A stretch of DNA of 64,000 bases, taken from NCBI GenBank assembly GCA_947500845.1, contig CANMTP010000002.1, positions 62,001 to 126,000 of the forward strand, read 5' to 3'. Origin of the DNA: an uncultured Aquimarina sp. Its GTDB lineage: Bacteria > Bacteroidota > Bacteroidia > Flavobacteriales > Flavobacteriaceae. The notes under the pieces are model-generated. The model searched no databases, had not been told where the DNA came from, and was given only the letters and a program-made list of their open reading frames with translations. How positions within the stretch are numbered: the stretch's first letter is position 1; each line of letters opens with the position of its first letter. Below are positions 24,159 through 57,697 of this stretch, piece after piece. The translations under genes were made by a program, and so were the position numbers.

Positions 24159-25241
24159 TTACCCTCTGGCAACTTTTTTCTGATGATTAATAGATTCCTG
24201 GTGAATTGCTTTATAAATTCTTAACATAAATTCTTCACTTAGTCCTTTTTCTTCACCTTCAAGAATCATTTTACCCAAAATCTCATTCCAACGTTTTGAT
24301 TGAAGAATAGCGACATTTTGTTTAGCTTTCACTTTACCAATTTCGTCAGATATTTTCATTCTTCTTGATAAGATTTCCAATAATTGATTATCTGCTATAT
24401 CGATTTTAGCCCGAAGTTCACTAAGTGCTTTTTGATACGCTTCATCATCACCGATTTCTTTTCTTATTCTTAAATCTTTCATGTACTGAATTAATGTTTC
24501 TGGCGTAATCTGCTGTTTTGCATCGCTCCATGCGTTATCGGGATCATAGTGCGTCTCTACAATCAATCCATCAAAATTAAGATCTAAGGCTGTTTGGGAA
24601 AGATCAAAAATTAAATCCCTATTCCCAGCTATATGGGATGGATCTAAAATCAATGGGAGATCTGGGAAGCGATTTTGTAAATCAATAGGAATTTGCCATT
24701 CTGGAATATTACGATATTTTGTTTTTTCGTAGGTTGAAAACCCTCTGTGAATAACCCCTAGATTTTTTACATCTGCCGTATAAAAACGTTCTACAGCTCC
24801 TAACCACAAAGACAAGTCTGGGTTTATAGGATTTTTAATCAGAACCGGATTATCAATCCCTTGACAAGCATCTGCTATATCCTGAACGATAAATGGAGAC
24901 ACGGTACTTCTAGCACCAACCCATAATACGTCTATATCATGCTTTAAAGCCAACTCTACATGATGTGGATTAGCCACCTCGGTAGCAATCTTAAGACCCG
25001 TTTCTTCTTTTGCCCTCTGAAGCCATTTTAACCCCAGAGCACCAACTCCTTCAAAATTCCCGGGCCTGGTTCTTGGTTTCCAGATACCGGCTCTTAATAC
25101 AGTAGCATCAGAATCCTTAAGCTGATGTGCAATTTTTAGTACTTGTTCTTCGGTCTCTGCACTACATGGTCCGCCAATCACTAGTGGATGATCTAAATTA
25201 TAAGCATCTAACCAGTTTCTAAGTTCTTTTTTATTTTCCAT
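24159..25241 (-). CDS. bifunctional DAHP synthase / chorismate mutase
   Basis: A 360-residue fusion. Residues 1-265 are a type I-beta (KDO8P-synthase-like) 3-deoxy-7-phosphoheptulonate synthase: VIGGPCSAETEEQ, VLRAGIWKPRTRPGNFEG, VLIKNPINPDL and LILDPSHIAGN. Residues about 270-355 are an AroQ-type chorismate mutase helix bundle (LRAKIDIADNQLLEILSRRM, IGKVKAKQN, SKRWNEIL). It thus makes the first shikimate-pathway intermediate and also converts chorismate to prephenate for pheA and tyrA. It is the last gene of the attenuated pheA operon, which would let phenylalanine supply set the entry flux. Confidence 0.93.
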   Translation of the reverse strand: MENKKELRNWLDAYNLDHPLVIGGPCSAETEEQVLKIAHQLKDSDATVLRAGIWKPRTRPGNFEGVGALGLKWLQRAKEETGLKIATEVANPHHVELALKHDIDVLWVGARSTVSPFIVQDIADACQGIDNPVLIKNPINPDLSLWLGAVERFYTADVKNLGVIHRGFSTYEKTKYRNIPEWQIPIDLQNRFPDLPLILDPSHIAGNRDLIFDLSQTALDLNFDGLIVETHYDPDNAWSDAKQQITPETLIQYMKDLRIRKEIGDDEAYQKALSELRAKIDIADNQLLEILSRRMKISDEIGKVKAKQNVAILQSKRWNEILGKMILEGEEKGLSEEFMLRIYKAIHQESINHQKKVARG

Positions 25242-25340: not shown

Positions 25341-26189
25341 TCAGCTTATTCCTTTTAAAATTGATTTAATGTGGTTTGTGTTTTCCATCTCTTTATAAAT
25401 TTCATCAAAATCATCTTTCTCCATTAATTCTTTAAACTGAGTGAGATTTGTAATATACTCTTGTAGCGTTTCGATTACATTCTTTTTATTCTGTTTAAAA
25501 ATTGGTGCCCACATAGCAGGAGAACTTTTTGCTAATCTTACTGTTGATGCGAAACCACTTCCTGCCATGTCAAAAATATCACGTTCGTTCTTTTCCTTTT
25601 CGATTACCGTCTTGCCTAACATAAATGAGCTAATATGAGATAAATGAGAAACATAGGCGATATGTTTATCATGCGAAACAGGATCCATATAACGAATCCG
25701 CATTCCTAATCTCGAAAAAATCTCCATTCCTTTTTCCTGTAATTTGAAGGCCGTTTTTTCTACCTCGCAAACAATATTGGTTTTCCCTCTGTATAAATTA
25801 GCAACAGCTGCTTCAGGCCCAGAAAATTCAGTACCCGCAATAGGATGTGCAGCCAAATAATTTCTTCTTTTATGGTGATTTGACACTACTTCACATAACT
25901 TTTGTTTGGTAGATCCAACATCAAAAACCAAACAGTCATCAGACACTACATCTAAAACCTCAGAAATTATATTTACTGTAGCATCTACGGGTATCGCTAT
26001 GATTACAATAGTCGCATCTTTAATATCTTTTAAAGACGCTTTGTTATCTATAACCCCTAGCGCTAAAGCTTTATTAAGATTTTCTTCATTTTGATCGACG
26101 CCATAAATTAAGGCTTCGTTAAAAGCTGCTTTAATGTCTATGGCAAACGAGCCACCTATTAGTCCTGTTCCTATTATGAATACATTCAT
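25341..26189 (-). CDS. tyrA: prephenate dehydrogenase
   Basis: TyrA oxidatively decarboxylates prephenate to 4-hydroxyphenylpyruvate for tyrosine. I start at 26189 (MNVFIIGTGLIGGSF), which overlaps the aminotransferase stop by four bases (ATGA); the frame is open 18 codons further. The NAD-binding GTGLIGGS lies at residues 7-14, and DVGSTKQKLCEVV, HPIAGTEFSGPEAA and YVSHLSHISSFML carry the substrate-binding and catalytic His residues. At 282 residues it is the single-domain form with no mutase or ACT domain; the mutase is supplied by the next gene. Confidence 0.93.
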   Translation of the reverse strand: MNVFIIGTGLIGGSFAIDIKAAFNEALIYGVDQNEENLNKALALGVIDNKASLKDIKDATIVIIAIPVDATVNIISEVLDVVSDDCLVFDVGSTKQKLCEVVSNHHKRRNYLAAHPIAGTEFSGPEAAVANLYRGKTNIVCEVEKTAFKLQEKGMEIFSRLGMRIRYMDPVSHDKHIAYVSHLSHISSFMLGKTVIEKEKNERDIFDMAGSGFASTVRLAKSSPAMWAPIFKQNKKNVIETLQEYITNLTQFKELMEKDDFDEIYKEMENTNHIKSILKGIS

Positions 26190-27343
26190 GCTGTTACTTG
26201 TAGCCTTTTTATTGCTTCTTTTATGTTCTCTTGTGTAACGCAAAGCGAAAAACGAATATATCCTTTACCATTACTCCCAAAGATATCTCCCGGAGCTATG
26301 AAAATATCATTCTTATACAAAATAGTATCGATAAAATCTACCGCATTTGTTCCTTCTGGCAGTTTTGCCCATACAAACATACCCTTGGCAGTTTTATCAT
26401 AGCTACAGCCCAAAAGAGATGCCAACTCCCAAATCAATTCTCTTCTGTTTTCATAAATAGCATTCATCTTATCATACCAACCATTTGATATTCTTAAAGC
26501 TGCAATAGCACCTCTTTGTATTCCTTGAAACATCCCACTATCCATATTACTTTTTACTTTAAGTATCGCCTCTATTTTATCTGAACTTCCGCTAACCATA
26601 CCCACTCTCCATCCTGCCATATTGAAGGTTTTGCTTAATGAGTTTAACTCTAATGCTACTTCTTTTGCTCCTTCAATGGATAAAATACTTACCGGACTGT
26701 CATTTAAAATAAAACTATATGGATTATCCTTTACCAATAGAATGCTATGTTTTTTGGCAAAATCAATAATTTCCTTAAACATGCTTATATTTCCTGAAGC
26801 TCCTGTTGGCATATTAGGATAATTAATCCACATAATTTTCACCTTACTCAAATCCATTTTTGAAAGGCTATGAAAATCAGGCGCCCAGTCATTTTCTTCA
26901 ACCAAATCATAAAATATTGGTTTTGCCCCAACAAGATTAGTGACTGATGCATATGTAGGATACCCCGGATTTGGAATCAATACTTCATCCCCTTCATTAA
27001 GGTAGGCTAATGATATATGCATGATACCTTCTTTAGATCCCATTAACGGTAAAATTTCGTTTTCAGGATTTAAGTTCACAACATATTTATCTGCATAAAA
27101 ATCTGCGATTGCCTGTCGTAATTCTGGTAACCCCTGATAACTTTGATATTTATGGGCACCATCTACTACTACTGCTTCTTGAATAGCTTTGACGACTTCT
27201 TCAGGAGGATCTAAATCTGGACTTCCGATAGCCATATTCAATACCGGTTTCCCTGAAGCCGCGAGCTCTCTGACTTCTCTTAATTTTTTTGAGAAATAGT
27301 ATTCTTCTACTGTTTCTAATCTTTTTGCGGTTTGAATACTCAT
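26186..27343 (-). CDS. pyridoxal-phosphate aminotransferase, class I (aromatic operon)
   Basis: A 385-residue fold-type I aminotransferase. The PLP Schiff-base Lys is in SLSKTFNMAGWRVGM near residue 230; WINYPNMPTGA and the C-terminal GKGYIRFSLCV with the carboxylate-binding Arg are also visible. Its four-base overlaps with pheA upstream and tyrA downstream place it in the Phe/Tyr operon. It most likely transaminates phenylpyruvate and 4-hydroxyphenylpyruvate, although the sequence alone would also suit aspartate or diaminopimelate substrates. Confidence 0.88.
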   Translation of the reverse strand: MSIQTAKRLETVEEYYFSKKLREVRELAASGKPVLNMAIGSPDLDPPEEVVKAIQEAVVVDGAHKYQSYQGLPELRQAIADFYADKYVVNLNPENEILPLMGSKEGIMHISLAYLNEGDEVLIPNPGYPTYASVTNLVGAKPIFYDLVEENDWAPDFHSLSKMDLSKVKIMWINYPNMPTGASGNISMFKEIIDFAKKHSILLVKDNPYSFILNDSPVSILSIEGAKEVALELNSLSKTFNMAGWRVGMVSGSSDKIEAILKVKSNMDSGMFQGIQRGAIAALRISNGWYDKMNAIYENRRELIWELASLLGCSYDKTAKGMFVWAKLPEGTNAVDFIDTILYKNDIFIAPGDIFGSNGKGYIRFSLCVTQENIKEAIKRLQVTA

Positions 27344-28170
27344 CCGTTTTGATTTTTATATTCGCCTAATACTTTTAATTCTAAGGCCATAATCTTTAAA
27401 ATAGACATTGCCTTTTCATAATTTTGGTAATCCTTAAAAGTCACATCTACAAAGAAGGAGTACTTCCAAGGCATCTTGATTACAGGTAATGATTGTATCT
27501 TGGTCAAGTTTAGATTACAATCACTCATTACATTAAGGACAGTAGCTAAACTTCCTCTTTTATGATCTGTAAGAAACTTTAATGATGCTTTGTTAATTTC
27601 CTTCTTCTCTACGCCTGAGTTCTCTCTCGTGTTTAAAATAAAGAATCGAGTACTATTTGATTTTATGGTTTGAATTTCTCTTGCTAAAATATTTAAGTCA
27701 TAGATATTAGCTGCTGTTTCGCCTGCTACCGCTGCAATTCCTTTGAGTCGTTTTTCATGGATTCTCTTAGCTACATCTGCAGTATCGGCATCCTCCACTA
27801 ATTTAATATGAGGTAAAGCCCTAAAAAACTCTTTGCATTGTAACAATGCCATTGGATGGGAATACACCTCTTGAATATCCGAAATTTCTTGACCCTCGAG
27901 CGCCATTAAACAATGATGTATCGGCAAAAAATACTCGCCACTAATTGTGAGATTATGCTCATCGATATAAGCATAATTAGGAATAATAGAGCCTGCAATA
28001 CTATTTTCTATAGCCATTACAGCATCTGTACTTTTATGACTTTCAAGACTATTTACCAATTCCCGAAACGACATGCATTCATCGACTGCTACATCTGCAC
28101 CAAAATATGCTTGTGCTACTCCGTGGTGATAAGATCCTTTTATTCCTTGTATGGCAACTTTTTTACTCAA
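27340..28170 (-). CDS. pheA: prephenate dehydratase
   Basis: PheA converts prephenate to phenylpyruvate, committing it to phenylalanine. The 276-residue protein has the N-terminal VAIQGIKGSYHHGVAQAYF, IENSIAGSI, the catalytic NSTRFFIL (Thr-Arg-Phe) near residue 170, and a C-terminal ACT domain beginning GSLATVLNVM that normally binds phenylalanine for feedback inhibition. There is no fused mutase. It is the first structural gene of the operon, 28 bases after a terminator hairpin that forms part of a leader-peptide attenuator. Confidence 0.95.
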   Translation of the reverse strand: MSKKVAIQGIKGSYHHGVAQAYFGADVAVDECMSFRELVNSLESHKSTDAVMAIENSIAGSIIPNYAYIDEHNLTISGEYFLPIHHCLMALEGQEISDIQEVYSHPMALLQCKEFFRALPHIKLVEDADTADVAKRIHEKRLKGIAAVAGETAANIYDLNILAREIQTIKSNSTRFFILNTRENSGVEKKEINKASLKFLTDHKRGSLATVLNVMSDCNLNLTKIQSLPVIKMPWKYSFFVDVTFKDYQNYEKAMSILKIMALELKVLGEYKNQNG

Positions 28171-28190
28171 ACGTTTTAAATTTTCTTGTC

Positions 28191-28259
28191 AAAAAAAAAT
28201 CCCGACTTTTCAGCGGGATTCTAACTATATTTTAAACTATTATTTACATAGCAATCCCG
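28191..28259 (-). promoter_or_regulatory. phenylalanine transcription attenuator of the pheA operon
   Basis: Three elements alternate on the transcript: CGGGATT (region 2, 28259-28253), AATCCCG (region 3, 28220-28214) and CGGGATT again (region 4, 28204-28198), the last running directly into a nine-U tract (28199-28191). Regions 3 and 4 form a seven-base terminator stem. Regions 2 and 3 form an equally long antiterminator. Region 2 overlaps the last codons of the leader peptide, so a ribosome at the leader stop covers it and termination follows; stalling on the Phe/Tyr codons frees it. Pairing is read from the sequence, and the mechanism is that known for E. coli pheL-pheA. Confidence 0.85.
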
Positions 28260-28321
28260 ATCTTACTTTTAAAATAAAAGAAGAAAAAATAAAATCGGTT
28301 CCAAGTAAATGCGTTGTTCAC
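28244..28321 (-). CDS. pheL: phenylalanine operon leader peptide
   Basis: A 25-codon frame on the minus strand from GTG (28321-28319) to TAA (28246-28244). Codons 10-17 read Phe-Tyr-Phe-Phe-Phe-Phe-Tyr-Phe (28294-28271); one further Phe is at codon 5. No ATG lies in frame upstream before a stop, so GTG is the likely start. The peptide ends in KIGIAM. Its last codons overlap region 2 of the attenuator, as required for control by ribosome position. A weak -7-like TAATTTAG lies at 28348-28341. The symbol is by analogy with the E. coli leader; there is no sequence homology beyond the Phe run. Confidence 0.8.
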   Translation of the reverse strand: MNNAFTWNRFYFFFFYFKSKIGIAM

Positions 28322-28512
28322 TATTTTATGTTTTATAGTGCTAAATTAGGTAAAACTATTACTATTAAAAATGTTTTTTTATTTTTTTCACTCCTGAACA
28401 AGTATTATCATCATATTTTGAATTATTTTCTAATATCAATGAAATATTTCAAATAAAACATAAAGAATACTGCTAATCTTTTATGTTTTAAATTACTAAC
28501 AAACGTTTGTAA

Positions 28513-29700
28513 TTAAATAACTCCTAACTCTTTACCAACTTTTGTAAAGGCTTTAACCGCTTTTTCCAGGTGATTATGATCATGGGCTGCAGATAATTGA
28601 ACTCTAATTCTCGCTTTTCCTTTGGGTACCACCGGGTAAAAGAATCCTATAACATAGATCCCTTCGTCTAATAGCTTAGCAGCGAATTCTTGTGCTAACT
28701 TTGCTTCATATAACATAACTGGTACTATTGGATGATCCCCAGGGATAATATCAAATCCTGCTTTGGTCATTTCTGATCTGAAATACTTTGTATTTTCTTC
28801 TAATTTATCCCGAAACTCTGTTGACGAACTAAGTAAGTCCAGAACTTTTATGGAAGCCCCCACAATTGAGGGTGCTACGGTATTTGAAAACAAATAGGGT
28901 CTTGAACGCTGTCGTAACATCTCTACAATTTCCTTTCGGGCTGCGGTAAATCCTCCTGAAGCGCCACCAAGTGCTTTCCCATAGGTTCCGGTAATAATAT
29001 CTACGCGACCCATTACATTTTTGTATTCGTGCGTACCACGACCCGTTTCACCTAAAAAACCGGTAGAATGGCATTCATCTATCATAACCATAGCCTCATA
29101 TTGATCTGCCAAATCACAAATTTTATCTAATTGAGCAATAGTCCCGTCCATAGAAAAAGATCCATCGGTGACAATTAATATTCTTCTGGCATCCTTAGCC
29201 TGCACTAGTTGTTTTTCTAAATCGACCATGTTATTATGCTCGTACCTAAAACGCTTGGCTTTACACAAACGAATTCCGTCGATAATAGAGGCATGATTTA
29301 AAGCATCAGAAATTATGGCATCCTCTGGCCCCAAAATAGGTTCAAATAATCCTCCGTTAGCATCAAAAGCAGCAGCGTACAGGATACAATCCTCCATTCC
29401 GAGGAATTCTGCTGTTTTTTTTTCTAATTCTTTATGTATGTCCTGAGTACCACAAATGAATCTTACCGATGACAACCCATAACCATGGGAATCAATTGCT
29501 GCCTTACCTGCTTTTATAACTTCGGGATGCGATGAAAGTCCCAAATAGTTATTGGCACAAAAATTTAACACATGACTATTTTTGGTGGTGTCTATTTCAG
29601 CGCCTTGAGGAGTGACAATGATACGCTCAGATTTGTATAGTCCTGCCTCTCTAATTTCGTCTAATTCCTTTTGTATATCGTCTTTTATATTTGAAAACAT
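28513..29700 (-). CDS. kbl: glycine C-acetyltransferase (2-amino-3-ketobutyrate CoA ligase)
   Basis: Kbl splits 2-amino-3-ketobutyrate with CoA into glycine and acetyl-CoA, the second step of threonine breakdown. The 395-residue PLP enzyme belongs to the alpha-oxoamine synthases: [23 protein letters not shown], and [13 protein letters not shown] with the PLP Lys near residue 240. [12 protein letters not shown] is also characteristic. It lies 55 bases after the threonine dehydrogenase gene on the same strand, so the two form an operon. Confidence 0.94.
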
Positions 29701-35368: not shown

Positions 35369-35470
35369 GCGTTCGAGCGGGCTTTCAGCTATATCTTTTA
35401 CATTTATTGTACCCTTCGAGAGCCTCAGGGTATAATAAATGTAAAAGGATGTCGCTTCAATCCCTAACGC
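35369..35470. repeat. family B palindromic repeat, copy 1
   Basis: Ends GCGTT...AACGC. The inner arms CATTTATTGTACCCT (35401-35415) and AGGGTATAATAAATG (35427-35441) are inverted with one mismatch. A segment TTTCAGCTATATCTTTTA is mirrored by TAAAAGGATGTCGCTTCAA. Copy 2 is at 52260-52386. I recognise the pattern as a common flavobacterial intergenic repeat of unknown function. Confidence 0.7.
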
Positions 35471-35561
35471 AATTGTTTTTTATAATCATTCTCGCTGAGC
35501 CTTCGCCCCATGTCATAAGATTATTATGTATTAATTTTACTTCTTCTGATCGGTTTTGCGG

Positions 35562-39488: not shown

Positions 39489-39615
39489 TATATATATTGG
39501 TATTAATTTGGGTTCCAGCCCATACTGAAACGACAAATTCTTTTCTTTAAAAGAAAAAATCAAATTTTATTGTATCAAGAAAATAATGGAAAATATAGCA
39601 GCGCTATGAATCTTC

Positions 39616-39718
39616 GTTATCTACCCCGCTTGTTGCGGATAGAATGTAGCACCTTCTTTAAAGGCTAAAGGGTTGCTAAGGTTTCATAGGGTCTATTCCC
39701 TCCACCTTTCTTGATAAC
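39616..39718 (-). promoter_or_regulatory. SAM-I (S-box) riboswitch upstream of metH-metF
   Basis: On the minus strand the 103-base element begins GTTATCAAGAAAGGTGGAGG and contains GAAACCTTAGCAACCC and AAGGTGCTA, the invariant S-box core. Helix P1 closes perfectly: GTTATC (39718-39713) with GATAAC (39621-39616). Binding of SAM should lower expression of metH and metF. I could not identify an unambiguous terminator in the 127 bases before the start codon, so whether control is on transcription or translation is open. Confidence 0.92.
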
Positions 39719-39960
39719 AGTGTAAATAATTTTATGAACTCAACAGTTAATACTGTTAATTTGATTACAAATAAACAGTATAGCCCTGTGTTTTGCAAGT
39801 TTATTTAATGATTTTACTGATTTATAAAAATTCTTAAGTATTTTATGAATAAAATAAAGGTTTCCAAAGGTTACTATATTAATTATCTAATTTTACAGTG
39901 CAACTTTCGTATTTAAAAAATGTCATTAATAAAATCTCAAGAATACAATAGTCTAAAACA

Positions 39961-52259: not shown

Positions 52260-52386
52260 GCGTTCCCTATTTTACTAAAGTTTCATAGGATCAGGCTTTC
52301 CACTATATCTTTTAACTTCTGTCTTCACCCTTCGACTCCGCTCAGGGAGACAGAAGATAAAAGGATGCCGCTTCAATCCTTAACGC
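52260..52386. repeat. family B palindromic repeat, copy 2
   Basis: GCGTT...AACGC ends, with CAGGCTTTCCACTATATCTTTTA mirrored (loosely) by AAAAGGATGCCGCTTCAA, and inner arms ACTTCTGTCTTCACCCT / AGGGAGACAGAAG. It fills the gap between thrA and the OsmC-like gene and ends two bases before the thrA stop codon. Copy 1 is at 35369-35470. Confidence 0.7.
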
Positions 52387-52388
52387 AA

Positions 52389-54809
52389 TTAATTATTTCC
52401 TTTTTCTGTTAATCTCAATATATCTCCAAAAACTCCTCTTGCGGTAACTGCTGCACCAGCACCCGCACCTTGTATTACAATGGGTTGATCTCCATAGGAC
52501 TCAGTGTAAATCTCGAAGATGGAGTCGGATCCTTTTACTTGTCCTAACGCACTACTTCGAGGAACTGAAACCAATTTTACATCCAGATTTCCTTTTTCTT
52601 GCGATAAATCGCCCCAAAGATCACCAATATATCTTAATACATGATCTGGTTCTTGGTTTTCTTTAACTTTCTGATATACTAGATCCAATTCTTGTATTCT
52701 TTCCAAAAATGAAACAACTTCTCCTTCTCTTAGGTTTTCAGGGATCAGATTGTCTATATTAATATCTTCAAATTCATTACTTAAGTCCAGCTCCCTGGCC
52801 AGAATTAATAATTTTCTCCCTACATCATTACCACAAAGATCCTCTCGGGGATCAGGTTCGGTAAATCCCTTGTCGATAGCCTCTTGTAGTACCTCACTAA
52901 ATAGTCTTCCTTCAGAAGAAAATGTATTAAATAAATAGCTTAACGATCCTGAGAAAACCCCTTTAATCCTTGTGATATTTTCTCCTGATAAGTGCAGTAG
53001 CTTGATCGTATCAATCAAAGGTAGTCCGGCTCCAACATTCGTTTCATATAAATATTGCTTTTGATTATTTTCGAGCGTTGTGCGCAACTTTTTATAGAAA
53101 TCAAAACTTAGGGTATTGGCTATTTTATTAGACGATACCAAATCAAAACCATTTTCTACCAAGCCGAGATAGTTGCTTGTAAATTCTTTACTGGCCGTAT
53201 TATCAATAGCAATAAGATTTTCAAGATGGCACTTGTTGGCGAATTTGATAACGTCATTAACCGTATAAACATTACCCTCTTTTTCGAGTTCTGCTTTCCA
53301 ATTTAAATCAATTCCGTTTTTATGTAACAAAACTTTTCTGGAGTTTGCCACAGCAAAAATATTCAGTTTTATCTTCTTTCTTTTTTCTATTTCTTCTGTC
53401 GATTGTAGTATTTGATCAATCAAAGTGCTTCCTACCAATCCATGCCCAAATATTGCGATGTTTATTTTCTTGGAAATCTCAAAGATTTCACCATGAATAA
53501 CATTTAAAGCTTTGTGTAATTGTATTTTTCTTACCACCAAACTCACGCTTTTTCCAGAAACAGTGTTGTTGAATAATAACGGTATTACCTGATTTTTGAT
53601 TAAAGCATTATATGGTTTGTGAAAAGTACTCAAGTCTTGCCCTATAATCGAAATTACAGAAACTTCATTTTCTATAGATATTGCGCTTACGTCTTGTTGA
53701 TAAAAATCGGCTTCAAATTCTAGTTCTAATATAGATTTTGCCTCATTTGCTTTATCGGCTTGAACGATAAATCCTATTCCTCTCTCTGATGAACCTTGCG
53801 AAATAATACTTACGCTAATATTCTTATGCGCCAGTGCTCTAAAAATTCTGGCATCTACTCCTACTTTTCCTAAAAGTCCTCTTCCTTCAAGATTTATTAA
53901 TGCTACATCTTCTAATACCGAAAGTGATTTTATACCTTTTTCACTTGTTTCAGAAGTAATTAAAGTTCCGTTATCATTTTGGTTAAATGTATTAAGAATT
54001 CTCAATGGGATATTCTTCTCGATAAGAGGAATGATAGTTTTTGCATGCAAAATATTTGTTCCAAAATAGGCCAACTCGTTGGCTTCTTTAAACGATAGCT
54101 TTTCAATTTTTTTAGCCTCTGGTACTAAATCGGGATTAGCCGTATAAATGCCATTGACGTGAGTAAAATTTTGAAGTTCTTCTGCCTCCAAATAATTAGC
54201 GAGTAATGAGGCTGTATAATTACTGCCATTTCTACCTAAAGTAGTTGTTTCGTCTTTGGTATTTGAAGCAATAAAACCAGTTATCACATTAACTGTGGCT
54301 CCATTATATCTCTCAAAATGTTTAATTACGTTCTCTTTTGACAGTTTATCTAATGGTTGAGCATTACCAAATTCACCATCAGTTTTGATGAGTGTTCTGC
54401 TATCGGTAAAATGAGCTTTGATATTCTTCTCTTGCAGGAGCTGTGTTAACAATTTAGCTGAAATCACCTCTCCTTGAGACAACACTTGATCTTTTATCCT
54501 TTTGCTATAATCACCCAATAGTGACACTCCTTCAAAAAGTTTGTCTAAGGTTTCATACTCTTTATCAAAGTTAATCCCCTTAAAATCTTCTAGTTGATAT
54601 CTTTTAAAAGCTGCGAATTGTTCTTTATAGTCTTCATTCTTGCTTGCTTTTTCAAGAATCTCTTCGAGCTCATTGGTTGTGTTTCCTCGAGCAGAAAGTA
54701 CTACAGCGATTTTTTCTCCGCGTTTGATATTATCATCAATAATATCTACTACTGTACCTATGGCTTTTCCATTAGCTAATGACTTTCCACCGAATTTTAA
54801 AATTTTCAT
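52389..54809 (-). CDS. thrA: bifunctional aspartokinase / homoserine dehydrogenase
   Basis: An 806-residue fusion. Residues 1-290 are aspartokinase (KILKFGGKSLANG, FIASNTKDETTTLGRNGSNYTASLL), 300-450 hold tandem ACT domains (VALINLEGRGLLGKVGVDARIF), and 455-806 are homoserine dehydrogenase (IFGHGLVGSTLIDQIL NAD-binding motif; GAGLPLIDTIKLL; YLFNTFSSEGR; GFTEPDPREDLCGNDVGRK). It makes homoserine for methionine and threonine. The ACT domains normally bind threonine or methionine. It lies 22 bases after metX in the riboswitch-controlled row, so SAM should repress it; threonine control is not visible. Confidence 0.95.
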   Translation of the reverse strand: MKILKFGGKSLANGKAIGTVVDIIDDNIKRGEKIAVVLSARGNTTNELEEILEKASKNEDYKEQFAAFKRYQLEDFKGINFDKEYETLDKLFEGVSLLGDYSKRIKDQVLSQGEVISAKLLTQLLQEKNIKAHFTDSRTLIKTDGEFGNAQPLDKLSKENVIKHFERYNGATVNVITGFIASNTKDETTTLGRNGSNYTASLLANYLEAEELQNFTHVNGIYTANPDLVPEAKKIEKLSFKEANELAYFGTNILHAKTIIPLIEKNIPLRILNTFNQNDNGTLITSETSEKGIKSLSVLEDVALINLEGRGLLGKVGVDARIFRALAHKNISVSIISQGSSERGIGFIVQADKANEAKSILELEFEADFYQQDVSAISIENEVSVISIIGQDLSTFHKPYNALIKNQVIPLLFNNTVSGKSVSLVVRKIQLHKALNVIHGEIFEISKKINIAIFGHGLVGSTLIDQILQSTEEIEKRKKIKLNIFAVANSRKVLLHKNGIDLNWKAELEKEGNVYTVNDVIKFANKCHLENLIAIDNTASKEFTSNYLGLVENGFDLVSSNKIANTLSFDFYKKLRTTLENNQKQYLYETNVGAGLPLIDTIKLLHLSGENITRIKGVFSGSLSYLFNTFSSEGRLFSEVLQEAIDKGFTEPDPREDLCGNDVGRKLLILARELDLSNEFEDINIDNLIPENLREGEVVSFLERIQELDLVYQKVKENQEPDHVLRYIGDLWGDLSQEKGNLDVKLVSVPRSSALGQVKGSDSIFEIYTESYGDQPIVIQGAGAGAAVTARGVFGDILRLTEKGNN

Positions 54810-57164: not shown

Positions 57165-57300
57165 ATTGATTTGAAATTTTAAGACTACGTCTTAGAAAAT
57201 GTTTTTAAAATCAAATACATCAAACACTACTTTATTAGTGCCAGTACATAGAAAATTAAAAAGAAAGGAAACTACAATCACAGAAAAGCAATTGCGTCAA

Positions 57301-57403
57301 GTCATCTTTTCCCAATCAATCGGGATAGAATTTAGCACCTTCTTTAGTAATAAAGGGTTGCTAAGGTTTCACAGGGTCTATTCCCTCCACCTTTCTTAAT
57401 AAC
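57301..57403 (-). promoter_or_regulatory. SAM-I (S-box) riboswitch upstream of metY-metX-thrA-osmC-metZ
   Basis: On the minus strand: GTTATTAAGAAAGGTGGAGG, then GAAACCTTAGCAACCC, then AAGGTGCTAAATTC and a GGGAAAAGATGAC end. P1 pairs GTTATT (57403-57398) with GATGAC (57306-57301), including one wobble. It is 103 bases long, the same as the copy at 39616, and closely similar to it. A strong promoter lies just upstream and about 200 bases of leader follow. I see no certain terminator; a TAAGAC-GTA-GTCTTA hairpin near 57180-57195 lacks a clean U tract. Confidence 0.93.
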
Positions 57404-57431
57404 TATCTAAAAATGTATAAGAAACTTGGGA

Positions 57432-57578: not shown

Positions 57579-57605
57579 CCGAAATATTATTAGGGATAGA
57601 TTTGA

Positions 57606-57697
57606 CTGATTGCAACCCTGCTGTACTGTTTATATTTGGTAATGTTACCAAAACAACAAAAATGCTAAAGCAGTTCGATATAAGTTACTTTATCGAA
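57606..57697 (+). promoter_or_regulatory. structured 5' leader of metK, possible riboswitch
   Basis: The leader folds by inspection into CTGCT (57618-57622) / AGCAG (57669-57673) enclosing a hairpin TTTGGTA-ATGT-TACCAAA (57635-57652 region), followed by a second hairpin TTCGATA (57674-57680) / TATCGAA (57691-57697). Words CTGATTGCAACC (57606-57617) and AATGCTAAAGCAG (57661-57673) recall conserved parts of SAM-sensing RNAs, but the order and spacing fit none that I know. Call is tentative. Confidence 0.4.

Follow-up and report, generated by a model that had tools for sequence, protein, structure and literature searches.

A likely Phe/Tyr leader-peptide attenuator of the pheA operon in Aquimarina and similar predicted switches in other Bacteroidota

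The operon pheA-aminotransferase-tyrA-aroG/CM of an uncultured Aquimarina sp., which according to Pfam assignments encodes both the Phe and the Tyr branches, is very likely controlled by a ribosome-mediated transcription attenuator. The operon is located in a 64,000-nucleotide stretch of contig CANMTP010000002.1 (hereafter the window; positions are counted from its first letter). Upstream of pheA, we identified a leader ORF containing eight consecutive codons for Phe and Tyr, the product amino acids of the downstream operon, and a predicted intrinsic terminator, recognized from sequence and fold, that lies between this ORF and the first structural gene. An earlier note on this DNA had described a complete attenuator at this position. 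The 25-codon frame with a GTG start, the eight-codon Phe/Tyr run, the three complementary words and the U run were all found by direct reading to be exactly where that note had placed them, and the claim as a whole is supported by conservation, complementarity, constrained folds and operon content. Comparison of the corresponding regions in other genomes indicates that similar switches are very probably present in many Bacteroidota.

Organization of the pheA leader region

The features of the region are listed below.

28341..28348, minus strand: promoter -7-like box TAATTTAG, resembling the Bacteroidota consensus TAnnTTTG
28244..28321, minus strand: leader ORF of 25 codons plus TAA, with a GTG start, reading VNNAFTWNRFYFFFFYFKSKIGIAM
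28271..28294, minus strand: putative regulatory codons F Y F F F F Y F (leader codons 10-17)
28285..28298, minus strand: region 1, the 5' arm of the predicted 1:2 hairpin, CCGATTTTATTTTT, inside the leader frame (minimum free energy and centroid folds of the full leader)
28257..28270, minus strand: 3' arm of the 1:2 hairpin, AAAAGTAAGATCGG, from the same full-leader fold, with three bases in common with word 2
28253..28259, minus strand: word 2, CGGGATT, within the last leader codons (direct reading)
28214..28220, minus strand: word 3, AATCCCG, common to the antiterminator (with word 2) and the terminator (with word 4)
28198..28204, minus strand: word 4, CGGGATT (direct reading)
28191..28199, minus strand: run of nine T, U in the RNA (direct reading)
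28214..28259, minus strand: predicted antiterminator hairpin 2:3, lengthened by GCTATGT/ATATAGT, -13.0 kcal/mol in the stalled-ribosome transcript ending after word 3
28191..28222, minus strand: predicted intrinsic terminator 3:4 plus nine U, -12.5 kcal/mol
27340..28170, minus strand: pheA, prephenate dehydratase (Pfam PF00800, 3.2e-55), for which the ORF tool gives a TTG start
26186..27343, minus strand: class I/II aminotransferase (Pfam PF00155)
25341..26243, minus strand: tyrA, prephenate dehydrogenase (Pfam PF02153 and PF20463), with a TTG start listed although the true start may lie further in
24159..25241, minus strand: aroG/CM, DAHP synthase-chorismate mutase fusion (Pfam PF00793 and PF01817)
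29700-28513: aminotransferase-family gene (Pfam) on the other side of the leader from pheA

The leader frame extends on the minus strand from the GTG codon that begins at 28321 (28319-28321) to the TAA stop codon at 28246-28244. As the earlier note had recognized, word 2 overlaps the last leader codons, and word 3 can pair alternatively with word 2 or with word 4. The switch would be expected to work as follows. Transcription would start just upstream of the leader frame. When charged tRNA-Phe and tRNA-Tyr are ample, the ribosome would reach the stop codon and cover word 2, leaving word 3 to pair with word 4, and RNA polymerase would terminate at the U run. Under a shortage of Phe or Tyr, the ribosome would stall within FYFFFFYF and leave word 2, which lies further downstream, free to pair with word 3 ahead of the synthesis of word 4, in which case no terminator would form and the operon would be transcribed.

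The putative promoter box is a recurrent feature of these loci. The -7 consensus reported for flavobacteria is TAnnTTTG (PMC9723704), and the motif TAnnTT[T/A]G is found no more than 60 nt from the leader start in all 30 loci of the genus sample (compared to 91 of 600 shuffles) and in 84 of 88 family loci (compared to 213 of 1760 shuffles), with 62 of the 84 family boxes sitting 23-31 nt before the leader start codon. The gene order pheA-aminotransferase-tyrA-aroG/CM was detected by tblastn in all 18 Flavobacteriales loci sampled and also in L270; in L269, pheA directly precedes aroG/CM.

The exact aromatic codon string occurs once, with no mismatches, in the 4.7 Mb source genome. When up to three mismatches are allowed, a search of the entire genome yields 99 matches compared to 98 for the reversed control, and a second genomic copy was accordingly rejected. 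The leader of the window starts with GTG, compared to ATG in the 88 family leaders, which were picked with ATG preferred; the GTG start might reduce leader translation in the window species.

Conservation of the leader and terminator among Bacteroidota

The layout was searched for in stretches of no more than 561 nt that end just within pheA, using a detector that requires an ORF of 8-60 codons with at least five Phe, Tyr or Trp codons in ten and, 10-110 nt downstream of its stop codon, a hairpin with a U run. The detector is positive for 151 of 164 Bacteroidota regions upstream of pheA, compared to 4 of the 164 reverse complements and none of 820 dinucleotide shuffles, and therefore the presence of this layout before pheA is not due to chance. 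A stricter rule, which asks for six or more aromatic codons in ten together with a word-2 run of six or more pairs, retains 143 of the 164 real regions and none of the 164 reverse complements.

The earlier note had made its reading depend on the conservation of the leader frame and the paired words in close relatives, and both are indeed kept, in 30 of 30 genus loci and 88 of 89 family loci, with the 89th leader located further upstream. The genus search covered 56 genomes including that of the window itself, 43 of which gave a pheA match; the genus sample consists of the best 30 loci (that of the window and 29 others), and G021, G026 and G028 were matched but left out. The most divergent of the 30 leaders is L030, which has the leader and terminator without a long word-2 run. 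The PheA protein of the window is at most 91% identical to those of its named near relatives, which are Aquimarina species. The family search covered 199 genomes, approximately one per genus, with pheA found in 186. The family sample comprises 89 loci besides the window, namely the 29 best, one of which (L031) belongs to the genus itself, and 60 of the next 100 listed; lower-scoring loci were left out, so that the sample leans to closer PheA sequences. In 88 of these 89 loci, the layout lies within 500 nt of pheA. The upstream sequence of the exception, L065, is shared with Gelidibacter salicanalis (L177), where the leader MNTTVYTYQTWNYFFFSKRNETSYV is found 646 nt upstream of pheA, displaced by repeats. 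Repeats of about 110 nt with a CCCGCC hairpin are present between the attenuator and pheA in four Gelidibacter loci (L065, L177, L176 and L185), and by eye their number varies between these records.

The order and phylum searches contributed 40 further loci, picked by hand, and the layout was detected in 28 of them, namely 22 of 34 outside the family and 6 of 6 within it; L218 and L224, both outside the family, have by eye a leader and an interrupted U run and are negative by the detector. The class search yielded a pheA match in 45 of 148 genomes, 17 of which had been read before and 24 of which were newly read; G170 and the partial matches in G493, G551 and G567 were left out. Using the detector with a looser U-run rule and no shuffle control, we found the layout in 15 of these 24 loci; L281 shows it by eye, and L279 and L280 are weak pheA matches. 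Altogether, the detector did not find the layout in 12 of the 40 and 9 of the 24 loci, mainly outside the family, 3 of these 21 loci being positive by eye. The layout was not found in any locus read in the families coded f5 (4 loci), f16 (1) and f57 (5), nor in L214 and L215, where pheA directly follows an aroA-like frame.

Three loci from genomes coded outside the class (L230, L231 and L234) contain a pheA that is 44-46% identical to that of the window, compared to 32-37% for other pheA genes of the same family codes, and have Phe/Tyr-rich ORFs and terminators upstream of it. Transfer of pheA together with its leader is possible in these cases. In L230 and L231, the pairing of word 2 is no better than in shuffles.

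Amino acids sensed

The composition of the leaders suggests that both Phe and Tyr are sensed, which appears probable and is the simplest reading of a leader that lists both products of the operon. Every one of the 88 family leaders contains Phe as well as Tyr, and the 2102 residues of these leaders include 503 Phe, 304 Tyr and 66 Trp. Dual sensing, which the earlier note had suggested, is favoured because Tyr is part of the longest aromatic run in all 88 family leaders and because the operon makes both amino acids. In the run columns of the peptide alignment (89 rows), one column is Tyr in 78 rows, one is Phe in all 89, and one is Phe in 58 and Tyr in 31.

The remaining probability falls mostly on sensing of Phe alone, with an input from Trp possible on top. 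That the attenuator senses only Phe, the Tyr codons being neutral fillers one base away from Phe codons, is unlikely. Leader pheL of E. coli is taken to sense Phe alone, Phe is the commonest aromatic residue in the 88 leaders (503 compared to 304 Tyr), and one run column is invariably Phe (89 of 89 rows); against this stand the Tyr in the longest run of each of the 88 leaders, the column with Tyr in 78 of 89 rows and the production of Tyr by the same operon. Sensing of all three aromatic amino acids, with the single Trp codon near the run as a third input to an operon that holds a DAHP synthase, is about equally doubtful. Trp is present in 66 of the 88 family leaders and in most leaders of the genus of the window, but there is usually one Trp codon, it is absent from 22 of the 88 and common to homologous leaders by descent, and trpE has a separate leader with a WWW motif in the same genome.

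With respect to how the ribosome would be halted, a leader peptide can act through contacts with the exit tunnel, as in tnaC and the erm leaders, rather than through empty A-site codons. The strong conservation within the genus of the peptide around the run (WNRFYFFFFYF, then KSKIGIAM) would fit such a peptide, but beyond the genus the residues outside the run vary widely whereas the aromatic content is kept, which is the pattern expected of codon-based sensing, and we consider stalling through the exit tunnel to be quite improbable.

Predicted switch states

Three states of the switch were modelled by folding with a ribosome that covers 13 nt from the first base of the A-site codon, an assumed value. 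When the ribosome sits in the middle of the aromatic run and the RNA ends directly behind word 3, half or more of word 3 pairs with upstream sequence in all 88 family loci, in 29 of 30 genus loci and in all 28 farther loci. Moving the ribosome to the stop codon lowers these counts to 2 of 88, 0 of 30 and 1 of 28, respectively, and the terminator fold is obtained in every locus of the three sets (88/88, 30/30 and 28/28). The predicted masking geometry is that of attenuators: in the model, a ribosome at the stop codon covers word 2 and a ribosome on the aromatic codons does not. Compared to loci with shuffled linkers, at least 70% of word 3 is paired upstream in 62 of 88 real cases versus 161 of 880, and the mean fold energy is -14.6 versus -6.9 kcal/mol. 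The complementarity of the words, their co-change and the shuffles all point to an antiterminator that is mutually exclusive with the terminator and has an arm in common with it.

At equilibrium, the terminator is the preferred fold of the full stalled transcript in the window, as it is in all 30 genus loci and in 70 of the 88 family loci. Since the terminator is favoured once word 4 exists, antitermination would have to be a kinetic trap; the classical model of attenuation treats the antiterminator in the same way.

The fold of the full leader (161 nt) consists of the 1:2 hairpin and the 3:4 terminator, with an energy of -36.2 kcal/mol compared to a mean of -22.8 kcal/mol for dinucleotide shuffles (z -3.6; 1 of 200 shuffles at least as stable). 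When the window transcript is cut after word 3 and folded with no ribosome, the partner of word 2 is word 3, not region 1. Half or more of word 2 pairs into the leader in 19 of the 30 genus loci, 36 of the 88 family loci and 7 of the 28 farther loci; the 1:2 hairpin is not general among the relatives. This hairpin, the promoter-like box and the His and Trp leaders of the same genome described below are additions to the earlier note, from which they were absent.

Co-variation of the complementary words

The words were compared in 89 rows, the locus of the window and 88 family loci; they were counted by script because the MAFFT alignment of the family gave word 2 two registers. Words 3 and 4 pair at seven of seven positions in all rows but one, which has six of seven. 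Word 2 pairs with word 3 at all seven positions in 37 rows, at six in 49 and at five in 3, counts that lean upward since word 2 was chosen as the best-pairing stretch near the leader end. At position 5 of word 3, C is opposite G in 47 of 47 rows and T is opposite A in 38 of 42; position 2 occurs as C-G-C, T-A-T and A-T-A, and double changes are also seen at positions 4 and 6. As a control, word 2 was combined with a different word 3 from another row: seven of seven pairs were obtained in 31% of 5530 combinations compared to 42% (37 of 89) with its own word 3, and at least six Watson-Crick pairs in 33% compared to 72%. The contrast between own and foreign words is clear but not absolute.

When position 5 is mapped on a PheA tree of 80 loci (L177, L188, L189, L191, L192, L194 and L199, named or odd, were left out), there are four changes in word 3, two in its partner and two to four independent pairs, which are too few for a sign test; the tree shows 16 changes of the entire word. 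The change at position 5 is mostly inherited by clades. When one locus per family was compared with shuffled leader ends in 13 families, the pairing of word 2 with word 3 gave a joint Fisher p of 3.6e-9; in the single loci of f3, f22 (L221), f23, f28 and f31 it was not above the shuffles. In the genus alignment, which is too uniform and in which rows L027 and L028 are misaligned at the terminator, RNAalifold predicts the terminator stem along with a weak, extended stem that runs through the leader; of the 33 pairs, 8 have both partners replaced in at least one row. With regard to the covarying stems that the earlier note had proposed to look for, complementarity is kept as the letters change, as the p of 3.6e-9 across 13 families attests, but much of the change is inherited by clades.

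A reading in which the hairpin simply ends transcription of the upstream gene or terminates constitutively in the leader, with the aromatic ORF an artefact of a region that is indeed T-rich, is hardly credible given the co-changing words and the detector results (positive for 151 of 164 real regions, 4 of 164 reverse complements and none of 820 shuffles).

Relationship to known attenuators

Attenuation of E. coli pheA is textbook knowledge, and to our knowledge its leader contains no Tyr. The E. coli pheL-pheA system (Rfam RF01859, Phe_leader) and the region analysed here have in common a Phe-rich leader peptide, overlapping alternative hairpins, a U-run terminator and pheA downstream; the window differs in having Tyr besides Phe in the leader and in the operon pheA-aminotransferase-tyrA-aroG/CM. 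E. coli pheA is also listed as attenuated in PMC1183508. The Phe_leader model aligns end to end at 28191-28307 with 25 bits (E 0.051), below the threshold given by its gathering score of 55, and judged by its sequence the pheA leader of the window is not a member of this Rfam family. Bacteroid-trp (RF01692), listed in PMC2864571, is likewise a peptide-leader RNA and comes from the same phylum, with Trp codons and trp genes in place of those seen here; the genome of the window carries one before trpE, and Rfam scans at gathering and permissive scores gave no Bacteroid-trp match at the pheA leader.

A known riboswitch at this locus was rejected: there is no Rfam match at gathering scores, and a permissive scan of 28100-28520 returned only sub-threshold matches, the best by bits being the Phe_leader match of 25. 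A T-box was rejected as well, there being no T-box model among the Rfam matches upstream of pheA.

Leaders that report on two or more amino acids made by one branched pathway have precedents in the ilvGMEDA and thr leaders, which contain mixed codons. These leaders sense branched-chain amino acids or Thr/Ile, whereas that of the window would sense Phe/Tyr. Both ilvGMEDA and thr are named as attenuated operons in PMC1183508. A survey of 2005 reported that pheA is linked to tyrA and aroF in Cytophaga and Bacteroides; for Enterococcus and Streptococcus, it noted attenuators upstream of gene clusters shared by Phe and Tyr (PMC1173090). According to a survey of 2010, leader-peptide systems were then known only in Proteobacteria and Actinobacteria, before its own case in Firmicutes (PMC2965389).

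For Bacteroidota, short ORFs in long 5' UTRs of the Bacteroides thetaiotaomicron transcriptome have been found reminiscent of attenuation leaders (PMC7366714). In Flavobacterium psychrophilum, pheA is preceded by a structured 5' element that is conserved across further genera of Flavobacteriaceae and has no Rfam match; it was reported in 2021 together with clues for leader-peptide attenuation before amino acid operons (PMC9723704). This element is probably the same as the attenuator of the window; in section 19 of PMC9723704, it is described without a leader sequence or a Phe/Tyr argument. Apart from that paper, the titles and abstract beginnings of the literature matches listed contain no Phe/Tyr leader before pheA of Bacteroidota and no account of its spread. 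The earlier note had pointed to the pheL-pheA layout in a distant phylum, a surprise that turns out to be overstated since a trp peptide leader of Bacteroidota is in Rfam and a pheA element had been hinted at in print. Phe_leader, Bacteroid-trp and the flavobacterial pheA element were known already; the explicit Phe and Tyr leader, its breadth and the anatomy of the switch are new here.

Other RNA elements in the genome and the window

The pheA element appears, on sequence grounds, to be one of a set of Phe/Tyr, Trp and His leaders in this genome. The Trp leader MKLILTNNWWWSSQNVNVVR, followed by a terminator, precedes trpE (L249:1276-1398, G000:C4) and corresponds to Rfam Bacteroid-trp with 59.4 bits compared to a cut-off of 49. 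The His leader MRTLFIHHHHSYIFAQAW, followed by a hairpin and a T run, lies about 320 nt upstream of the HisG match (L248, G000:C1), and an Rfam search up to an E value of 0.5 gave no match to this leader before hisG.

Several other structured RNAs are found in the window. Rfam identifies two SAM riboswitches (S box) and one SAM-II riboswitch at 57299-57405 (minus strand), 39614-39720 (minus strand) and 57586-57678 (plus strand), the SAM-II riboswitch and one S box being about 180 bases apart on opposite strands. There are also two matches to the Flavo-1 RNA, at 52285-52394 and 35371-35475 (both minus strand), for which PMC9723704 offers no real clue to function.

Implications

The analysis points to a textbook switch that very probably extends across much of a phylum in which little of this kind has been described, with a mixed Phe/Tyr leader before genes that make both amino acids. 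We tentatively suggest that it functions as an OR gate, in which a single leader, inherited from an ancestor common to most families of the class, monitors whether tRNA-Phe and tRNA-Tyr (perhaps also tRNA-Trp) are charged and governs a joint Phe and Tyr operon. The layout of the attenuator also makes it easier to annotate a leader gene that is readily missed. Ribosome-mediated attenuation requires a ribosome close behind RNA polymerase. Given the conserved set of Phe/Tyr, Trp and His leaders in one genome, coupling of transcription and translation in Bacteroidota becomes testable by simple reporters, and if the OR-gate reading is true, the two processes would be closely coupled throughout the group.
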